From a virus: 32,522 nt of DNA. Below the pieces are notes generated by a model. The model was given only the letters and a program-made list of their open reading frames with translations. It was not told the DNA's origin and ran no database searches. Of this stretch, positions 631-30,431 are shown piece by piece. The stretch spans positions 1 through 32,522 of the IMG/VR virus record IMGVR_UViG_3300045741_000088. The stretch is one strand, 5' to 3'. Position 1 is the first letter of the stretch. Each line of letters begins with the position of its first letter. The translations under genes were made by a program, and so were the position numbers.

Positions 631-1224
631 ATGGCAAAGCTCAACAGAGATGACGTAGATAAGTTGTATGAGTACGGTATCTACATACCGACCAAGACCA
701 TCATCTCTGTGGGTGAGACGGATGCTGAGATAGCCGCGAACCTGCTTAAGGGCCTTCACATCCTAGACAACGTCAATCAAGATAAGTCGATCACGATTGA
801 GCTCAACAACGTAGGCGGAGACGAGTACCACGGTATGGCGGTGTACGACACCATCAAAGCGTGTGTCTCCCACGTTAAGATCATCGGCAAGGGTCAGATC
901 ATGTCGATGGGCAGCATAATGTTTCAGGCAGCTGACGAGCGGATCATGGCGCCCAACGCGAAGCAGATGATCCACTACGGAACTCCGGTCTTAGCTGACT
1001 CCGATGCGCACGCTAAGGTTCAGTACAAGTGGACTGAGGAGTGCAAGAACTTCTCCAAGTGGATGGAAGACATGTACTTAGAGAAGGTCCGCGAGAAGCA
1101 CCCTGAGTTCTCCCGCAAGCGGTTAATCAAGATGCTTGACTTCGACACCATCCTCACTGCGCGTCAATCCGTAGACTTGGGCCTGGCGGACAAGATCTTA
1201 GGAGAAGAAGATGAAAACGTTTGA
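631..1224 (+). CDS. ClpP-like serine protease (S14 family)
   Basis: This 197-residue protein is about the size of mature ClpP. The catalytic triad can be placed: Ser92 in GQIMSMGS (ClpP 'GQAASMGA'), His115 in MIHYG (ClpP 'MIHQP') and an Asp at 170 or 172 before the 'TARQSVDLGLADKI' helix (ClpP 'SAEEAKEYGLVDKV'). The oxyanion-type strand 'ITIELNNVGGD' (about 54-64) replaces the usual 'LYINSPGG', so the Gly-Gly is kept but the Ser-Pro is not. ClpP forms barrels that degrade proteins delivered by AAA+ unfoldases; in phages the same fold also serves as a head-maturation protease. Here it follows the PPIase and GroES genes without a gap, suggesting a folding/degradation unit. Its 3' end overlaps the next gene by 14 bases. 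No propeptide or signal peptide is seen. Confidence 0.85.
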   Translation: MAKLNRDDVDKLYEYGIYIPTKTIISVGETDAEIAANLLKGLHILDNVNQDKSITIELNNVGGDEYHGMAVYDTIKACVSHVKIIGKGQIMSMGSIMFQAADERIMAPNAKQMIHYGTPVLADSDAHAKVQYKWTEECKNFSKWMEDMYLEKVREKHPEFSRKRLIKMLDFDTILTARQSVDLGLADKILGEEDENV

Positions 1225-1507
1225 CGAGTACAAAGACGGTGACTGGGTGGTATATGTCAACCCCGGCCACCCCTGGCACCATATGCAGTTTCAAGCTTAC
1301 AAATCTCAGTGGACTCACGATGCGTTCCGCCTGAAGTATGGCACTCGAGAGGTGATCGCTGATATAACAGAGGTCAGACCGATGGCGGACATGACCGACT
1401 TACTAAAGGCGTCACATGGCGAATTTGATTCATATCTTCAACGAGACACTGAACCGGGAAGAACCGAAGAAGACGAGTACGACGGCATCTACCGGCTTCA
1501 AGATTAA
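1211..1507 (+). CDS. Hypothetical protein, 98 aa, acidic tail
   Basis: I do not recognise this protein. It starts at an ATG preceded by GGAGAAGAAG inside the end of the ClpP-like gene. The N-terminal part is aromatic-rich (GDWVVYVNPGHPWHHMQF, residues 10-27), suggesting a small beta-barrel, and the C-terminal 25 residues are strongly acidic. Its last 92 bases are also read, in another frame, as the first 30 residues of the nuclease at 1416. Either this overlap is real or one of the two ends is misjudged. The good ribosome site and tight packing support a real gene. Confidence 0.6.
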   Translation: MKTFDEYKDGDWVVYVNPGHPWHHMQFQAYKSQWTHDAFRLKYGTREVIADITEVRPMADMTDLLKASHGEFDSYLQRDTEPGRTEEDEYDGIYRLQD

Positions 1508-2189
1508 GCCCTCAGTTCTAGGCTCACCTTGCCTTCGTAAGATTCTATACTCCTCAACCGGTACGCCAGAAGACTATGCTTTCGACCTAGACGGTAAGAA
1601 GCGCATGGCTCTTGGAGACTCCATCCATGACATGCTGAAGACCGTCTTCAAGAAGTCAGGCACCCTCATCGAGTACTACAACCCTGACGGATCGTTCAAC
1701 AAGGACTGGAAAGACCCAAGCAAGCTAGACACCGAGTTCCCGCTGGTATCGACCGAACTATTCATCAAGAAGGGCAAGGTCGACGCGCTGGTGGTCATCG
1801 ATGGTAAGCTGTGGGTTGGCGAGTTCAAGTCGTGCAACGCCAGGACCTTTAACACCCTAGCTACCGCCAAGGCGGATCACATCATACAAGCTGTGGTCTA
1901 CTGGTACGTCTTCAACCTCATGCTAGCCGAAGGTAAGTTCAGTCACATCAAAGAACTGGCCGGCTTCACGAAGGCCGATGGCGTTCGTTGGTTGTACGTC
2001 AACAAGGACGACACTGCCATGAAAGAGTTCACCATGACTCAAGGCGACCAAGTCTTCGCCCAGATCGTGGACAAGATCATGCAGGTCAAGGGGTATCACG
2101 ACTCGAAGACCTTACCTCCGAAGACCCAAGACTACTGCAAGACGTGCAATTGGCGTGACAAGTGCAAGAAGAACTTCACTCCTGCCTAA
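1416..2189 (+). CDS. Cas4/RecB-type PD-(D/E)XK nuclease with probable 4Fe-4S cluster
   Basis: The protein (257 aa) shows the full Cas4/AddB-type signature. Cys39 in SPCLRKILY is followed by His71 (GDSIHD), Asp123 (KVDALVV), Glu136-x-Lys138 (VGEFKS) and a QxxxY motif at Gln158/Tyr162. A C-terminal Cys241-x2-Cys244-x5-Cys250 would, with Cys39, ligate an Fe-S cluster. Such proteins are DNA exonucleases or end-trimming nucleases; phage members are linked to recombination, replication or genome processing. No cas1/cas2 gene is nearby, so a CRISPR role has no support here. The start at 1416 has an AAAGG sequence eight bases upstream and is needed to include Cys39; it overlaps the preceding gene by 92 bases. 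The gene ends the first transcription unit. Confidence 0.85.
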   Translation: MANLIHIFNETLNREEPKKTSTTASTGFKIKPSVLGSPCLRKILYSSTGTPEDYAFDLDGKKRMALGDSIHDMLKTVFKKSGTLIEYYNPDGSFNKDWKDPSKLDTEFPLVSTELFIKKGKVDALVVIDGKLWVGEFKSCNARTFNTLATAKADHIIQAVVYWYVFNLMLAEGKFSHIKELAGFTKADGVRWLYVNKDDTAMKEFTMTQGDQVFAQIVDKIMQVKGYHDSKTLPPKTQDYCKTCNWRDKCKKNFTPA

Positions 2190-2271: not shown

Positions 2272-3225
2272 ATGATGAGTAAGCTCGCAGCAATCTTAGC
2301 GGTAGCCGGTCTCGTGCTACTTAGTATCCCAGTGAGCTTGCGTCTCACCGGTGGCGGTAACCGAACTACCGTAGAGCGGACCAACGACGGAGCGAAGGAA
2401 GCTAAAGTTCCAAAGTTCGACGATCTATTAGGTCTTGGCGGCGAGGTCAAGCAAGTCTCCGTAAAGAAGACTCTAGTCCTGGAGGCCAAGAACACTTTAG
2501 TCTTTCGCGGCCCCGTAACTGGTTCATCGGTAGGATCGATGATGAAGAAGCTCTCAGATATGAGTCGAAACCTAGCCAAGAGCGACGTCATCTATTTAGT
2601 CTTGGACACTCCAGGCGGTTCCATCTTCGACGGAGTTGAGCTGATCGATTTCATGGAAGGCATTCCTCAAGAAGTTCGCACAGTTACCTTGTTCGCAGCT
2701 TCTATGGGCTTCCAGATCGCTGAGAACAACCCCGGCAAGCGTATCATCGCTCGAAACGGTACTTTGATGAGCCACCGAGCTACTGGTGGTCTTGACGGCC
2801 AGTTCGATGGAGAGCTCGAGACTCGCTACCGCATGGTGAAGCGAAAGATCGACTACATCGACTCCCGCTCAGCCGCTCGTGTGGGATTGTCTTTCGACGC
2901 CTATAAAGCCAAGGTCATAAAAGAGTGGTGGATCCATGGGTTTGACGCCATCGAGGAGAAGGTTGCCGATGAGGTAGCTCTGATCCAGTGCGGAAGCTCG
3001 ATGAACGGAACTGAGGAGCTTAAGGTCATGACATTCTTCGGACCCATCGAGGTCGTGTTCGACAAGTGCCCGCTGATTCGCGAGCCGGTCGAGATCCGCT
3101 TAGGCGGCATCAAGAACTACGCGCTTCCATTCGTTCAAAAGATGGTCACAGACATGTTCTACGATAAAGCTAAGTTCGTTAAAGACGTCGTAAACACCAA
3201 CAACTTCTACAAGATCTTCCCCTAA
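2272..3225 (+). CDS. Membrane-anchored ClpP/SppA-like serine protease
   Basis: This 317-residue protein begins with a short basic start and a hydrophobic segment (about residues 5-22) that looks like a signal anchor. A linker follows, then a ClpP/crotonase-fold domain: a strand with LDTPGGSIFDGVEL (111-124, the oxyanion Gly-Gly), Ser144 in LFAASMGFQIA and His168 in GTLMSHRATGG. The triad Asp is not certain. After about residue 240 there is an extra domain of unknown type (VMTFFGPIEVVFDKCPLIR...). The fold matches ClpP and the membrane NfeD/SppA-type proteases. The position just before the head genes suggests either head maturation or processing of envelope proteins. AAAGGAGAC stands before two consecutive ATGs (2272, 2275); either may be used. 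It is distinct in sequence from the ClpP-like protein at 631, so the window holds two such enzymes. Confidence 0.75.
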   Translation: MMSKLAAILAVAGLVLLSIPVSLRLTGGGNRTTVERTNDGAKEAKVPKFDDLLGLGGEVKQVSVKKTLVLEAKNTLVFRGPVTGSSVGSMMKKLSDMSRNLAKSDVIYLVLDTPGGSIFDGVELIDFMEGIPQEVRTVTLFAASMGFQIAENNPGKRIIARNGTLMSHRATGGLDGQFDGELETRYRMVKRKIDYIDSRSAARVGLSFDAYKAKVIKEWWIHGFDAIEEKVADEVALIQCGSSMNGTEELKVMTFFGPIEVVFDKCPLIREPVEIRLGGIKNYALPFVQKMVTDMFYDKAKFVKDVVNTNNFYKIFP

Positions 3226-9433: not shown

Positions 9434-10018
9434 ATGAAGACTTATGTCATCAACCTACTTGGTGGTTCTGGGTTAGGGAAGTCAACGACAGCAGCGAAGG
9501 TATTCGGTGAGCTTAAGACTCGCGGCGAGCACTCGGAGCTAGTCCGGGAGTTCGTCAAGGAGTGGGCTTGGGCTGGAAAGATCGTAGGACCTTTCGGCCA
9601 ATCCATCATCTACGGCCAGCAGCTTGAGCGAGAGTCGACCCTCTACAACAAGGTTGAGTTCATCGTGACCGACTCACCGTTGGTGCTGTGTCCGGTCTAT
9701 CAAAAGCACTACGCCGGTCACGAGTCCATCAAGCACTGTGTCTTCAACGACCTCAAGGTCGCCCAGGACATGGGAGTGACTCACCTCAACTTCTTGCTCA
9801 GGCGCCAGAAGCCGTTCGATCCTCGTGGTCGGTACGAGGATGAGAAGACCGCCAAGCTTATCGACCGAAAAGTTGAGTCGTTCTTGGTCTACCATGGACT
9901 TGACTTTATTCCGGTTGACTGCCCAGAGTCAGACAGGATAGAATTTATAGTTAACAAGGCACTCGAAGCTAGAGGAGTTTCAAATGATCGAAAAGACATG
10001 CCGGTGCGGCAAGACTAA
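9434..10018 (+). CDS. P-loop kinase/ATPase (AAA_28, NadR-kinase-like)
   Basis: The Walker A motif GGSGLGKST is at 10-18. A likely Walker B-type strand is 'VEFIVTDSPLVL' at about 75-86, and 'RRQKPFDPRGRYEDE' (about 121-136) looks like a lid or phosphate-binding segment. The overall plan and length (194 aa) resemble the AAA_28 family that includes the ribosylnicotinamide kinase domain of NadR; phages often carry such proteins beside nucleotide or NAD metabolism genes. The substrate cannot be told from sequence. The last 35 bases overlap the next gene. TTGGAG precedes the ATG. Confidence 0.7.
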   Translation: MKTYVINLLGGSGLGKSTTAAKVFGELKTRGEHSELVREFVKEWAWAGKIVGPFGQSIIYGQQLERESTLYNKVEFIVTDSPLVLCPVYQKHYAGHESIKHCVFNDLKVAQDMGVTHLNFLLRRQKPFDPRGRYEDEKTAKLIDRKVESFLVYHGLDFIPVDCPESDRIEFIVNKALEARGVSNDRKDMPVRQD

Positions 10019-26121: not shown

Positions 26122-26646
26122 TTACCTACGTGACCGATCGTCCAACTCCTCGTTAAGCTGAGCGTACAACGAGTCTACCTCTATGACGCTCTTGCGAAAG
26201 AACTGCTGAAGCTTGTCTATGTTCTGGTGGAGATCACCGTCAAACTGCTGAACGTGCGCCTTGACTAAAGCGTTCATCCTAGAGTCGAGACCTTCTTGAC
26301 GCTTACGTCTAGTCTCCTCGTACGCTAGGTTGCGCTCTTCGCGGATCTTATGGTTGTTCTTTAAGACCTCAAGACCAGGTCCGTTAAGCTTACGGTTCTT
26401 CCCAGATATGATGCCGCACTCGGTGCATACCAGGTAGCTATCAACTGGCAGCGAGCCAAGAACCAGCTTGGCCTTCTCCCAGGTGTGGATCTCGCACCCG
26501 TAGCCCGGAGGAATGGGTTCTACTGACGGATACTTCTGTCGAAGCTTCCGGTGCTCGATGATGCCTAAGATCAGCAAGCTAGTTCGATAAGCTACGATGC
26601 CGACTAACGCGCTAACCAAGACTAAGAGTACAAGTGCCTCACCCAT
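26122..26646 (-). CDS. Membrane protein with zinc ribbon, 174 aa
   Basis: A hydrophobic N-terminus (about 4-30, ALVLLVLVSALVGIVAY...) gives one or two membrane segments. Cys51 and His54 (GCEIHTW) together with Cys74 and Cys77 (YLVCTECG) look like a zinc ribbon, and a long helical tail (about 100-174) follows. I take the ATG at 26646 because AGGAGG lies seven bases upstream, inside the end of the sigma gene; a TTG six bases further upstream is less likely. Role unknown; the coupling to the sigma factor suggests co-regulation. Confidence 0.7.
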   Translation of the reverse strand: MGEALVLLVLVSALVGIVAYRTSLLILGIIEHRKLRQKYPSVEPIPPGYGCEIHTWEKAKLVLGSLPVDSYLVCTECGIISGKNRKLNGPGLEVLKNNHKIREERNLAYEETRRKRQEGLDSRMNALVKAHVQQFDGDLHQNIDKLQQFFRKSVIEVDSLYAQLNEELDDRSRR

Positions 26647-28021
26647 TTGCAAGCCTCCTCGCTCGTTTCTTGAGCGTTCTAAAAGCAGAGCACTGGATCA
26701 CTCGAACGCCCTGCTTGGTTATACCGATCTCGTCTGCGATAGCCTGGAGGGTCATGCCCTCGTCGTCCGGGACCTCACCGATGCCGAAGCGAAGTCTTAT
26801 GATCTTCTCAGTTCTAGGGTCGAGAGTAGACAGTATGTCTCTGATTCGATCCTGGAGAACCTTACGCTCCACCACCGAGGTGGGAGACTCTACGTCAGAA
26901 GGAAGCATCTCAAGAAGAGACATCCCAGACGACAGCTCCTCTTCTAAGCCGATCTCGTACTGAGCCCGCGTCTGAAGATCTTCTAGGACCTTGACCTCGA
27001 TGCCCGACTCCTTAGATACCTCAGCGTTAGTCGGAGCGCGACCCAGTGTCTGGGTCATCTTGGATATGAGCTTTCGTAGGTTAGTCTCCATCCACTCGAT
27101 GTGGGTTGGAACTCGAACGGTCTTGCCTTTATTTGATATAGCACGCTTGATGGACTGGTCGATCCACCACGTGGCGTACGTTGATACCTTTGTCTTCTTT
27201 GATGAGTCGAACTTATCGACCGCTCGCATCAAGCCTAGGTTTCCTTCTTGGATCAGGTCCTCGAAGTCGAGGCCCTTACCGACGTGCTTCTTAGCTCTGG
27301 AGATGACGAGTCTCAGGTTCTTGTTGATGAGCTCGTTGCGGAAAGCTGAAGCCTTGAACTCAAGGTCAGATATCGTCTTAGAGGTCTCCTTCACTTCAGC
27401 GAAAGGAGCTCTCACCTTCTCGCGAGCGGTGCTGTACTCCATTATGACGTGCGACCACTCGACTAGCTTGTTGTTGTACTTGGCGTCGGTCAGCGAGTAC
27501 TCAGACTTGATCCTAGATCGAAGATCAGGAGAGTCGGTAGTGATCTGAGCCATGATGTCGTCGTTAGTCTCGGATTGGTCAAAGTACTTTCTGATGGACT
27601 TGAACTTAGATTCTATGTCTTGGATCAGCGAGTTCTTTCGCTTGATCTCAGTTACCACACCGTACACGACGTTGCCGGTGAGCGCTACGTCAAGCAGCAG
27701 CTGATCTACGTCGATGTCCTTGCCGAGGAGCTTCACGAGCTCGGTGAACTTCTGATGAATCTCCTTCTGAGCATCTTTAGACGACTCCTCATCCAAGCGC
27801 TTAGATATGTCGATGATGGACTCGCCGCCAGAGTCAAGGTTCTCTAGGTACATCTTCAGCTCTCGACGAGAGAACGGAGTTCGCGTCAGGTTGCTGAGGA
27901 TCTGCTTTTGAAACACTTCGATGCTCTTGATGAGCTCTTCTTCTTGAGCTCGCGTCAGGAGCGGACCAGAATCGATTGACTTGAGATACGCGTTTATCGT
28001 TTGATCTAGTTTTTTACTCAT
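26639..28021 (-). CDS. Phage-encoded sigma70-family RNA polymerase sigma factor, 460 aa
   Basis: Region 1.2 is at 5-37 (DQTINAYLKSIDSGPLLTRAQEEEL). A long non-conserved segment of about 190 residues follows. Region 2 is at 230-315: 'NLRLVISRAKKHVGKGLDFEDLIQEGNLGLMRAVDKFD', then STYATWWIDQSIKRAIS. Region 3 is at 315-375 and region 4 at 390-455 (LDPRTEKIIRLRFGI, then 'TLQAIADEIGITKQGVRVIQ'). Region 1.1 is absent. The conserved melting residues YATWW (282-286) are kept. Two contact sites deviate from E. coli RpoD: WWIRQAITRA reads WWIDQSIKRA, and the region 4.2 recognition core R-E-R-I-R-Q-I-E reads K-Q-G-V-R-V-I-Q. It would reprogramme host RNA polymerase to phage promoters. The ATG at 28021 follows a GGGGGTG ribosome site and has its own sigma70-like promoter. 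It is the first gene of a three-gene minus operon. Confidence 0.93.
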   Translation of the reverse strand: MSKKLDQTINAYLKSIDSGPLLTRAQEEELIKSIEVFQKQILSNLTRTPFSRRELKMYLENLDSGGESIIDISKRLDEESSKDAQKEIHQKFTELVKLLGKDIDVDQLLLDVALTGNVVYGVVTEIKRKNSLIQDIESKFKSIRKYFDQSETNDDIMAQITTDSPDLRSRIKSEYSLTDAKYNNKLVEWSHVIMEYSTAREKVRAPFAEVKETSKTISDLEFKASAFRNELINKNLRLVISRAKKHVGKGLDFEDLIQEGNLGLMRAVDKFDSSKKTKVSTYATWWIDQSIKRAISNKGKTVRVPTHIEWMETNLRKLISKMTQTLGRAPTNAEVSKESGIEVKVLEDLQTRAQYEIGLEEELSSGMSLLEMLPSDVESPTSVVERKVLQDRIRDILSTLDPRTEKIIRLRFGIGEVPDDEGMTLQAIADEIGITKQGVRVIQCSAFRTLKKRARRLANG

Positions 28022-28195: not shown

Positions 28196-28645
28196 ATGTC
28201 CCAGATTAACCCTGAGAATCGATGCGCTCAGTTGTTCTCTAAGGCTTTTGAGAAGCCTGAAGATGCCTTAAAGGCGATGTTCGACATGCAGCTCGCTCTT
28301 CAGCGAGACGTAGCGCGCCGCAAACCTGACACAGCCCTCGACTACGACATGGCTGGCTTCAAGCAGCGCGTGGATCAGATCTCTAAGGAGTGGAGAAACA
28401 TGAACCTAGAGATGGCTGAGCTTCTCGAGCGTCTGCCGTTCAAGGAGTGGAAGACCTACTCGCCTGAAGCTCTGGCCGGCTTTACGTCCGATGAGCAGAA
28501 GCTTGAGACGTGGTACGAGTACATCGACGTGTTCCACTTCTTCATGAACGTAGGTCTGTTGTTGGGTATCACGCCTGAGATCTTCGTTCAACTTTACATG
28601 ACGAAGAACGCCGAGAACTTCGACCGCCAGAAGAGAGGATACTGA
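28196..28645 (+). CDS. gp56-like dCTP/dUTP pyrophosphatase (dimeric dUTPase_2/dCTPase family)
   Basis: This 149-residue protein has the helical NTP-pyrophosphatase signature: 'ALKAMFDMQLALQ' (24-36), Glu72/Glu75 in NLEMAELLE, 'PFKEWK' (81-86), Glu108/Asp111 in WYEYIDVFHFFMN, and the ending 'TKNAENFDRQKRGY'. This matches the family of dimeric dUTPases that includes T4 gp56 dCTPase/dUTPase. The reaction is dCTP (or dUTP) to dCMP (or dUMP) and pyrophosphate, with metal ions held by the acidic pairs. It begins an operon in which the next enzyme uses the monophosphate product. Which nucleotide is preferred cannot be read directly; the Asp in the neighbouring TS-fold protein points to dCTP. The ribosome site is TAGGAGGG, eight bases from the ATG. 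Confidence 0.85.
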   Translation: MSQINPENRCAQLFSKAFEKPEDALKAMFDMQLALQRDVARRKPDTALDYDMAGFKQRVDQISKEWRNMNLEMAELLERLPFKEWKTYSPEALAGFTSDEQKLETWYEYIDVFHFFMNVGLLLGITPEIFVQLYMTKNAENFDRQKRGY

Positions 28646-29439
28646 TGAAGGTTTATGAGAACATCCACGAGGCTTACCTTGGTACGTTGTCCGACGTGTA
28701 CGACAACCCAGACTCTACGTCAGCTCCAAGAGGCCAGCGCGTTCGGGAGAAGTTCAACTACCAGTTCACGGTACTCAAGCCGACCACAGAAGCTGTGGTC
28801 ACTGAGGACCTAGAGCGAAACAAGACCATCGTCGAGTACTCTAAGAAGGAGTTCGACCTCTACAGCTCTGGTTCCAACTTGGCTGAGGACTTCGGCAAGG
28901 CTTCTAAGTTCTGGCTCAAGCTTGCCAACCCAGACGGTACCGTCAACTCCGCGTACGGTTACTTGATCAAGCACAACAAGTCTCACGGCTCAGACTTCGA
29001 GACCGCGCCTGAGGTGGTCGTCCCAGCTAGGTTCGAGGGCGATGGTTCAGTAACTCGAATGGTTCCGGTTAGACGCACTCCATGGGAGTGGGCTAAGGCT
29101 TCGCTGCTTGCTGATAAGGACACACGCCAAGCTATCCTTCGCTTCTCACTGCCAGAGCATCAGTGGATGGGTAACAAGGACCAGACGTGTACTCTCCACG
29201 GCTTGTTCATGATCCGAGACAACAAGCTGAACTTGACCATCAACATGCGATCCAACGATCTCACTCTAGGTCTAGTCTACGACCTTCCATGGTTTCAGTC
29301 GCTGATCTTCGACATGCGTGAAGAGCTCAAGGAAGCGTACCCAGATCTAGAGATCGGTACGTATACTCACTACGTCCACAACATCCACGTCTACGACCGA
29401 GACGAGGACAAGATCTTGAAGATGCTAGGGAGGGTTTAA
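28645..29439 (+). CDS. Thymidylate-synthase-fold enzyme, probable dCMP hydroxymethylase
   Basis: The C-terminal 120 residues contain the TS core: Arg161 in DKDTRQAIL, Cys182 in DQTCTLHGLFMI (nucleophile), 'KLNLTINMRSNDLTLGL' with Arg202-Ser203-Asn204-Asp205, and His248-Val-Tyr250 (TS 'THLY'). In TS the Asn177 that selects uracil follows Asp169 by eight residues. Here that position is Asp213 (GLVYDLPW), as in T4 dCMP hydroxymethylase (Asp179), where Asp selects cytosine. The enzyme should therefore use dCMP and methylenetetrahydrofolate to make 5-hydroxymethyl-dCMP; a dCMP methyltransferase is a possible alternative. The N-terminus to about residue 80 is less conserved. Its ATG overlaps the dCTPase stop and its stop overlaps the kinase ATG, as expected for one pathway. 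Confidence 0.75.
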   Translation: MKVYENIHEAYLGTLSDVYDNPDSTSAPRGQRVREKFNYQFTVLKPTTEAVVTEDLERNKTIVEYSKKEFDLYSSGSNLAEDFGKASKFWLKLANPDGTVNSAYGYLIKHNKSHGSDFETAPEVVVPARFEGDGSVTRMVPVRRTPWEWAKASLLADKDTRQAILRFSLPEHQWMGNKDQTCTLHGLFMIRDNKLNLTINMRSNDLTLGLVYDLPWFQSLIFDMREELKEAYPDLEIGTYTHYVHNIHVYDRDEDKILKMLGRV

Positions 29440-30080
29440 TGAAGCCGTATCCGACTAAGTTCCTCATCGACGGTATCGACCGACTCGGTAAGTCTTCTCT
29501 CATCAAGAACATCATCGACGATCTTGGCTATCACCTCGTGGTTCACTACGACAAACCTCAAGTCTTAACAGCGCTCTGCGACAAGGCTGACATGATCCAG
29601 TCGTGTCAGTTCTCAGACACCGACTACGACGAGTCGTTCAAGACCCTATCGCTGGAGAACCTAGCTCGTCGGTTGTACCAAGAAGAGGCAAACCGAGGAA
29701 TGTTTCAGCTCATCAAGTCAAACGTCCCAGTCATCTTCGATAGAACCCACCTCGGCGAGCTCGTCTACGCTCCGATGTACAGAGGTTACCCAGGTGACTA
29801 CGTATTTGACATGGAGCGCGAGATGCTCTCAGAGAAGTTCTACACCGCAGATGACGATATCAGATTGATACTCCTCACCAGTTCAAACCTAGACATGCTG
29901 GAGGATGACGGGCTATCGTTCGACCCAACGAAGAAGGGTGATGAGCAGCGCAAGTTCATCGAGGCCTTCAACCGATCCCAGATCAAGAACAAGGTCATCG
30001 TGGACGTGCACAACGGCCAAGGCGGATACAAGACGTTTGAAGAGGTATACTGCGAGGCAGTCCTCGGCTATAAAAAATAG
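29439..30080 (+). CDS. Deoxynucleoside-monophosphate kinase, thymidylate-kinase-like
   Basis: The P-loop is 'IDGIDRLGKSS' (10-20), the form found in thymidylate-kinase-like enzymes (DG.D..GKS). A strand ending in 'VIFDRTHLGELVYAPMYRGY' (98-117) gives the DR-H-E-Y segment that binds the acceptor nucleotide. The length (213 aa) suits the family. Coupled to the two preceding genes, it would phosphorylate the modified dCMP to the diphosphate, a step done in T4 by gp1. This protein does not resemble gp1 and would be a functional, not homologous, counterpart. A dTMP kinase role is also possible. The stop is followed by a gap with no terminator hairpin that I can find. Confidence 0.75.
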   Translation: MKPYPTKFLIDGIDRLGKSSLIKNIIDDLGYHLVVHYDKPQVLTALCDKADMIQSCQFSDTDYDESFKTLSLENLARRLYQEEANRGMFQLIKSNVPVIFDRTHLGELVYAPMYRGYPGDYVFDMEREMLSEKFYTADDDIRLILLTSSNLDMLEDDGLSFDPTKKGDEQRKFIEAFNRSQIKNKVIVDVHNGQGGYKTFEEVYCEAVLGYKK

Positions 30081-30149: not shown

Positions 30150-30431
30150 ATGGAAGTTCTAACTAATACGACGGATCCTACGAAGCTGTCTCAAAAGGAT
30201 GCGATCTTCGCGTTCACGATGGAAGCTCTGGGTCTTACTGAGAAGCCCGCTGATGCTAAGTTGAAGGACTTGGTCACGAAGGAAGTTCGTAAGATCGTCC
30301 GTCAGCGGTTGTTCGCGGCCGTAAAGGCTGGAACGGTTAAGCTCTCGAAGCAGTTCGACGACTCTAAGTTGAAGAAGTACTGCTCAAGCTTGATCAACAA
30401 CTGGGTCAAGAAGGATCCTCGCTTCAACTAA
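30150..30431 (+). CDS. Small basic protein, 93 aa
   Basis: Not recognised. Helical, Lys-rich and Cys-poor (SQKDAIFAFTMEALGLTEKP, 'LKDLVTKEVRKIVRQRLFAAVKAG', 'LKKYCSSLINNWVKKDPRFN'). The net positive charge and compact helical plan suit a DNA- or RNA-associated protein. GGAGGG precedes the ATG by seven bases, and it is the first gene after the modification operon. The 69-base gap before it carries TATCAT (30104-30109) as a possible weak -10. Confidence 0.6.
   Translation: MEVLTNTTDPTKLSQKDAIFAFTMEALGLTEKPADAKLKDLVTKEVRKIVRQRLFAAVKAGTVKLSKQFDDSKLKKYCSSLINNWVKKDPRFN

Follow-up and report, generated by a model that had tools for sequence, protein, structure and literature searches.

The operon and its surroundings

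The window, the whole stretch of DNA analysed here, is an entire virus record from IMG/VR, 32,522 bases long, and probably a fragment. It holds three contiguous genes whose predicted products are a gp56-type pyrophosphatase, an enzyme with the thymidylate synthase (TS) fold and a P-loop kinase with the thymidylate kinase (TMK) fold (Table 1). An earlier note had described the three genes as fused by stop/start overlaps; the reading frames and the 1-nt overlaps are exact, but the genes are overlapping or coupled rather than fused. A purine-rich ribosome site precedes each start (AGGAGGG, AGAGAGGA and GGGAGG for genes 1, 2 and 3, respectively). The protein families named in that note agree with the profile matches of the three products, that of gene 3 to PF02223 being weak.

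The order of the three genes is also found in L001, with small extra genes interposed, and the pair formed by genes 2 and 3 is present in L002 and L025. Given this recurrence, the arrangement is not attributable to chance. L001 and L002 are two close relatives of the window in which most of the surroundings are kept, with 50-73% identity in the longer proteins. The gene for an RpoD-like phage sigma factor lies just upstream of the operon, divergent from it, and adjoins it in L001 and L002 too. Directly after the operon, a gene encodes a small protein without a family match, with 61-67% identity in L001/L002. Elsewhere in the window, a Cas4-like exonuclease gene is flanked by two paralogues of a ClpP-like head protease, and a second P-loop kinase is encoded at a distance from the operon.

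Table 1. Operon genes, their overlaps and other features of the window
Feature	Position	Strand	Details
Gene 1, gp56-type pyrophosphatase (predicted)	28196-28645	+	149 aa; PF08761, phrog_173
Gene 2, TS-fold dCMP 5-hydroxymethylase (predicted)	28645-29439	+	264 aa; PF00303, phrog_160
Gene 3, TMK-fold P-loop kinase, predicted hmdCMP kinase	29439-30080	+	213 aa; phrog_761, weak PF02223
TGATG stop/start overlap, genes 1/2	28643-28647	+	sequence; 1 nt shared
TAATG stop/start overlap, genes 2/3	29437-29441	+	sequence; 1 nt shared
RpoD-like phage sigma factor	26639-28021	-	
Small protein	30150-30431		93 aa
Cas4-like exonuclease	1416-2189		PD-(D/E)XK
ClpP-like head-protease paralogue	631-1224		
ClpP-like head-protease paralogue	2272-3225		
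Second P-loop kinase	9434-10018		AAA_28, phrog_2107 'thymidylate kinase'

The predicted pyrophosphatase

The product of gene 1 is clearly predicted to belong to the gp56-type all-alpha dCTP/dUTP pyrophosphatases. It matches PF08761 (43.5 bits over cut-off) and phrog_173, and its best phage matches are T4-like gp56 dCTPases, with E-values down to 3e-18. The ExxE...ExxD metal site and the C-terminal KNxxNxxRQ motif are intact, and E72, E75, E108, D111, K137, N141 and R144 are invariant in an alignment set that includes T4 gp56. The gp56-like relationship proposed in the earlier note is thus real. The PDB relatives retrieved by profile are all-alpha dUTPases, and the enzyme may prefer dCTP over dUTP.

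A profile search found a gp56-type gene in only 4 of 24 relative records, and in two relatives a trimeric dUTPase fills the same slot, directly before the hydroxymethylase gene (L002:1077-1592, and upstream of 880 in L025). Since the content of this slot varies among relatives, dCTP destruction would not be a constant part of the system. These records also fit an alternative in which hydroxymethylated nucleotides are made but gene 1 encodes mainly a dUTPase, with the result that 5-hydroxymethylcytosine (hmC) replaces cytosine only in part. We regard such partial replacement as unlikely, although it is the most serious of the alternatives, as gene 1 is closest to T4-like gp56 and the annotation of the T4 member names both dCTP and dUTP as substrates.

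The middle gene as a predicted dCMP hydroxymethylase

Pfam and PHROGs name the product of gene 2 a thymidylate synthase (PF00303, phrog_160), and its catalytic Cys182 and general acid Glu69 align with those of the TS fold. Its sequence nevertheless supports the prediction that it is a dCMP hydroxymethylase and not an ordinary thymidylate synthase. In a sequence search of the PDB, the CMP hydroxymethylase MilA (65.6 bits) and T4 gp42 (53.7 bits; ~26% identity) both scored above all synthases, and AfhB reached 19.9 bits. The fold ranking obtained with the AF2 model (pLDDT 80.5) is similar: MilA has a Z of 22.0, AfhB (9iqc) 21.4 and T4 dCH 18.6, with synthases below 18. MilA, from mildiomycin biosynthesis, is thus the closest solved relative; it has Lys133 and Ala176 for ribose (PMC5175136), whereas in gene 2 the sites that select for ribose hold Arg and Ser, as in deoxyribose enzymes, so that by this criterion a deoxy substrate fits.

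The residue at position 177 of E. coli TS sets the substrate base, with Asn specifying uracil and Asp cytosine (PMC8670742, PMC5175136). The equivalent residue in the window is Asp213 (Asp179 in T4 gp42), the cytosine-specifying state. Among 94 distinct homologues, retrieved with search patterns that left out this column, 91 have Asp, two have Asn (E. coli ThyA and SPO1 gp29) and one ends before the column. The hydroxymethylase signature consists of an Asp at -3 of the catalytic Cys plus Ser-x-Tyr; the D145N mutation kills the activity of the T4 enzyme, which is devoid of the C-terminal tail of TS (PMC6400193). Gene 2 carries this signature (Asp179 at -3 of Cys182; Ser102-x-Tyr104) together with Asp205, and its chain stops at residue 264, just beyond the aligned core, without the TS tail. 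The earlier note had proposed that dCMP is hydroxymethylated, and residues with published mutational evidence argue for both predictions, that the substrate is dCMP and not dUMP and that the product carries a hydroxymethyl and not a methyl group.

The same fold serves enzymes with other products. The TS-homologue of Mosigvirus, to which RB69 belongs, has been described as a 5-hydroxy-dCMP synthase (PMC13390438), and Thanatos has been inferred to be RB69-like from a pentose attached directly to the base (PMC12838424). If gene 2 encoded such a flavin-dependent synthase, the phage would make 5-hydroxycytosine for glycosylation, as RB69 does; the fold match to AfhB, tied with that to MilA, is compatible with this, as is the TMK-like kinase near the TS-homologue in RB69 and Thanatos. 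The diagnostic states of this type, taken from the sequences of RB69_048 and Thanatos TH1_062, are a Glu at -3, a Thr in place of Ser94, an Asn in place of the folate Asp169 and the loss of Gly173. At these four sites gene 2 has Asp, Ser, Asp and Gly, that is, all four hydroxymethylase states, and in sequence AfhB scores far below MilA and the T4 enzyme, which makes a synthase of this type very improbable.

We give hardly any credence to a plain thymidine pathway composed of a dUTPase, a thymidylate synthase (or a dUMP hydroxymethylase) and a dTMP kinase. It is what the Pfam names suggest (dUTPase_2, Thymidylat_synt and Thymidylate_kin, the last below cut-off), and in both L002 and L025 the slot of gene 1 is occupied by a genuine trimeric dUTPase. 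Against a thymidylate synthase stand Asp for Asn177, Asp for Leu143, Thr for His147 and the missing tail, which closes over the folate; against a dUMP hydroxymethylase, SPO1 gp29 carries Asn at position 177, where gene 2 has Asp. The NCBIfam equivalog scores of the operon proteins for TS and dTMP kinase are also well under the cut-offs. A dCMP methylase, as expected of a phage with 5-methylcytosine like Xp12, can be dismissed with similar assurance: the enzyme of DLP4, a relative of Xp12 (PMC9206674) that serves as its stand-in and provides an indirect control, the base of DLP4 itself not being proven, shares Asp at position 177 with gene 2 but has Asn at -3, a TS-like tail and DHFR encoded in its cluster, whereas gene 2 has Asp at -3, the position at which Asn is incompatible with hydroxymethylase activity in T4 (D145N), and neither the tail nor a DHFR gene is found in the window operon.

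The kinase, the proposed pathway and related systems

The product of gene 3 falls below the curated dTMP-kinase cut-offs (18.2 versus 83.25 bits for TIGR00041 and 19.8 versus 27 for PF02223), while phrog_761 is matched by all 29 members of the kinase family that were scanned. It has a P-loop (GIDRLGKSS) and a DR motif (FDRTHLGE) of the TMK type, and the fold of its AF2 model (pLDDT 88.8) aligns along its full length with YorR (Z 14.9) and with thymidylate kinases (Z 12-14); phmmer against the PDB gave chance matches only. T4 gp1 scores 7.1 bits against the gene 3 family profile, in the P-loop region only, and it is missing among the 50 fold matches listed for gene 3, which by itself is no proof. 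As the earlier note had anticipated, the kinase differs from gp1 in sequence.

With the kinase as the sole query, a profile search found 37 viral loci, and a close-relative search gave no matches. A hydroxymethylase-like gene lies near the kinase in 35 of the 35 viral loci with enough flank, two having been left out because the contig ends within ~0.3 kb of the kinase. The spacing is mostly <200 bases, with a maximum of 4.2 kb, and both gene orders occur. Clustering of the kinases gives 11 groups at 80% identity but 7 at 60%; with 31 of the 37 loci in one 60% cluster, the independence of these counts is limited. In bacterial genomes, five contigs carried the kinase, all five with a hydroxymethylase-like gene within ~4 kb. 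The linkage control with the second kinase of the window returned one locus only. It is mainly due to this viral and bacterial linkage, and also to its fold, that we consider gene 3 likely to encode a dedicated hmdCMP kinase. More tentatively, and with a confidence somewhat short of even, we propose that these TMK-fold proteins are a family of dedicated (hydroxymethyl)dCMP kinases that stands in for gp1 across many unrelated phages and marks bacterial chromosomal modules, such that the kinase gene alone would predict hydroxymethylated cytosine nucleotides in phages and cells.

Other genes accompany these pairs. A guanylate-kinase-like gene (~159 aa) is located near the kinase-hydroxymethylase pair, upstream of the kinase, in 29 loci (L091-L119). 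Three of the five bacterial contigs, from Sorangium, a Bacteroidia MAG and Jiulongibacter (L129:5561-8561, L130:7866-11405 and L132:3660-8375), combine the hydroxymethylase-like gene and the same kinase family with an IrrE/M78 protein. L129 contains an acyl carrier protein gene as well, and position 126 is occupied by the MilA-type Lys in both L129 and L130.

Taken together, it is probable that the operon makes 5-hydroxymethyl-dCTP in the nucleotide pool through a variant of the T4 hmC pathway. The residues of gene 2, the gp56 motif and the kinase linkage all speak for the idea, advanced in the earlier note, of a three-gene operon for a C5-modified dCTP with T4 logic. Judging from its family, the gp56-type enzyme would hydrolyse dCTP (and dUTP) to dCMP (and dUMP), removing competing dCTP. 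The diagnostic residues suggest that the TS-fold enzyme would then use methylene-tetrahydrofolate as the donor of a one-carbon unit for C5 of dCMP, with a water activated by Asp179 completing the hydroxymethylation. From its linkage and fold, the kinase would convert hmdCMP to hmdCDP, which a host NDP kinase would convert to hmdCTP, and a polymerase would put hmC into phage DNA. We infer these enzyme activities, as well as the replacement of cytosine in the DNA and protection from restriction and Cas nucleases. No DNA polymerase was recognised in the 32.5-kb window.

In relatives, a sugar is probably added by a beta-glucosyltransferase. A homologue of the T4 enzyme is encoded ~1.3-3 kb from the kinase or the hydroxymethylase in L058, L068, L090 and LR756500, while none was found in the window (nor any other glycosyltransferase), L001, L002 or L025, all four of which are fragments.

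The T4 pathway (gp56, gp42 and gp1) comprises the same three steps, and its pyrophosphatase and dCMP hydroxymethylase are homologous to those of the window and share the catalytic signature despite the low identity to gp42. It differs in that its genes are scattered, its kinase is gp1, which the window kinase does not recognisably resemble, and it includes the glucosyltransferase not seen in the window fragment. The 5-hydroxycytosine clusters of RB69 and Thanatos likewise encode a TS-homologue and a TMK-like kinase a few genes apart, but with 5-hydroxy-dCMP synthase residues in the former, and their kinases show only weak profile similarity to that of the window (32.7 and 24.4 bits, respectively). 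In two cultured phages, Lactobacillus phage ATCCB and Enterococcus phage vipetofem, the TS-like enzyme has Asp at both position 177 and -3, as in the window, and a beta-glucosyltransferase gene follows one or two genes downstream. Unlike the window, neither has a gp56-type gene by phrog_173, and the kinase is very distant or not detected, a weakly matching one lying immediately upstream in ATCCB.

What is new here is the compact operon with a kinase other than gp1, although TMK-like kinases near TS-homologues in the RB69 and Thanatos genomes make this less surprising. The residue test distinguishes four kinds of TS-fold base-modifying enzymes. Outside T4, few studies have dealt with the kinase step by which a modified dNMP proceeds towards DNA synthesis, and in public sequence data this kinase family is nearly always found beside a hydroxymethylase-type enzyme; searches that start from this family can lead to phages with modified cytosine as well as to unexplained bacterial modules. 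For the phages themselves, these predictions would mean that T4-style cytosine replacement, or at minimum the pathway to its precursor, also occurs in a lineage of uncultured myoviruses.
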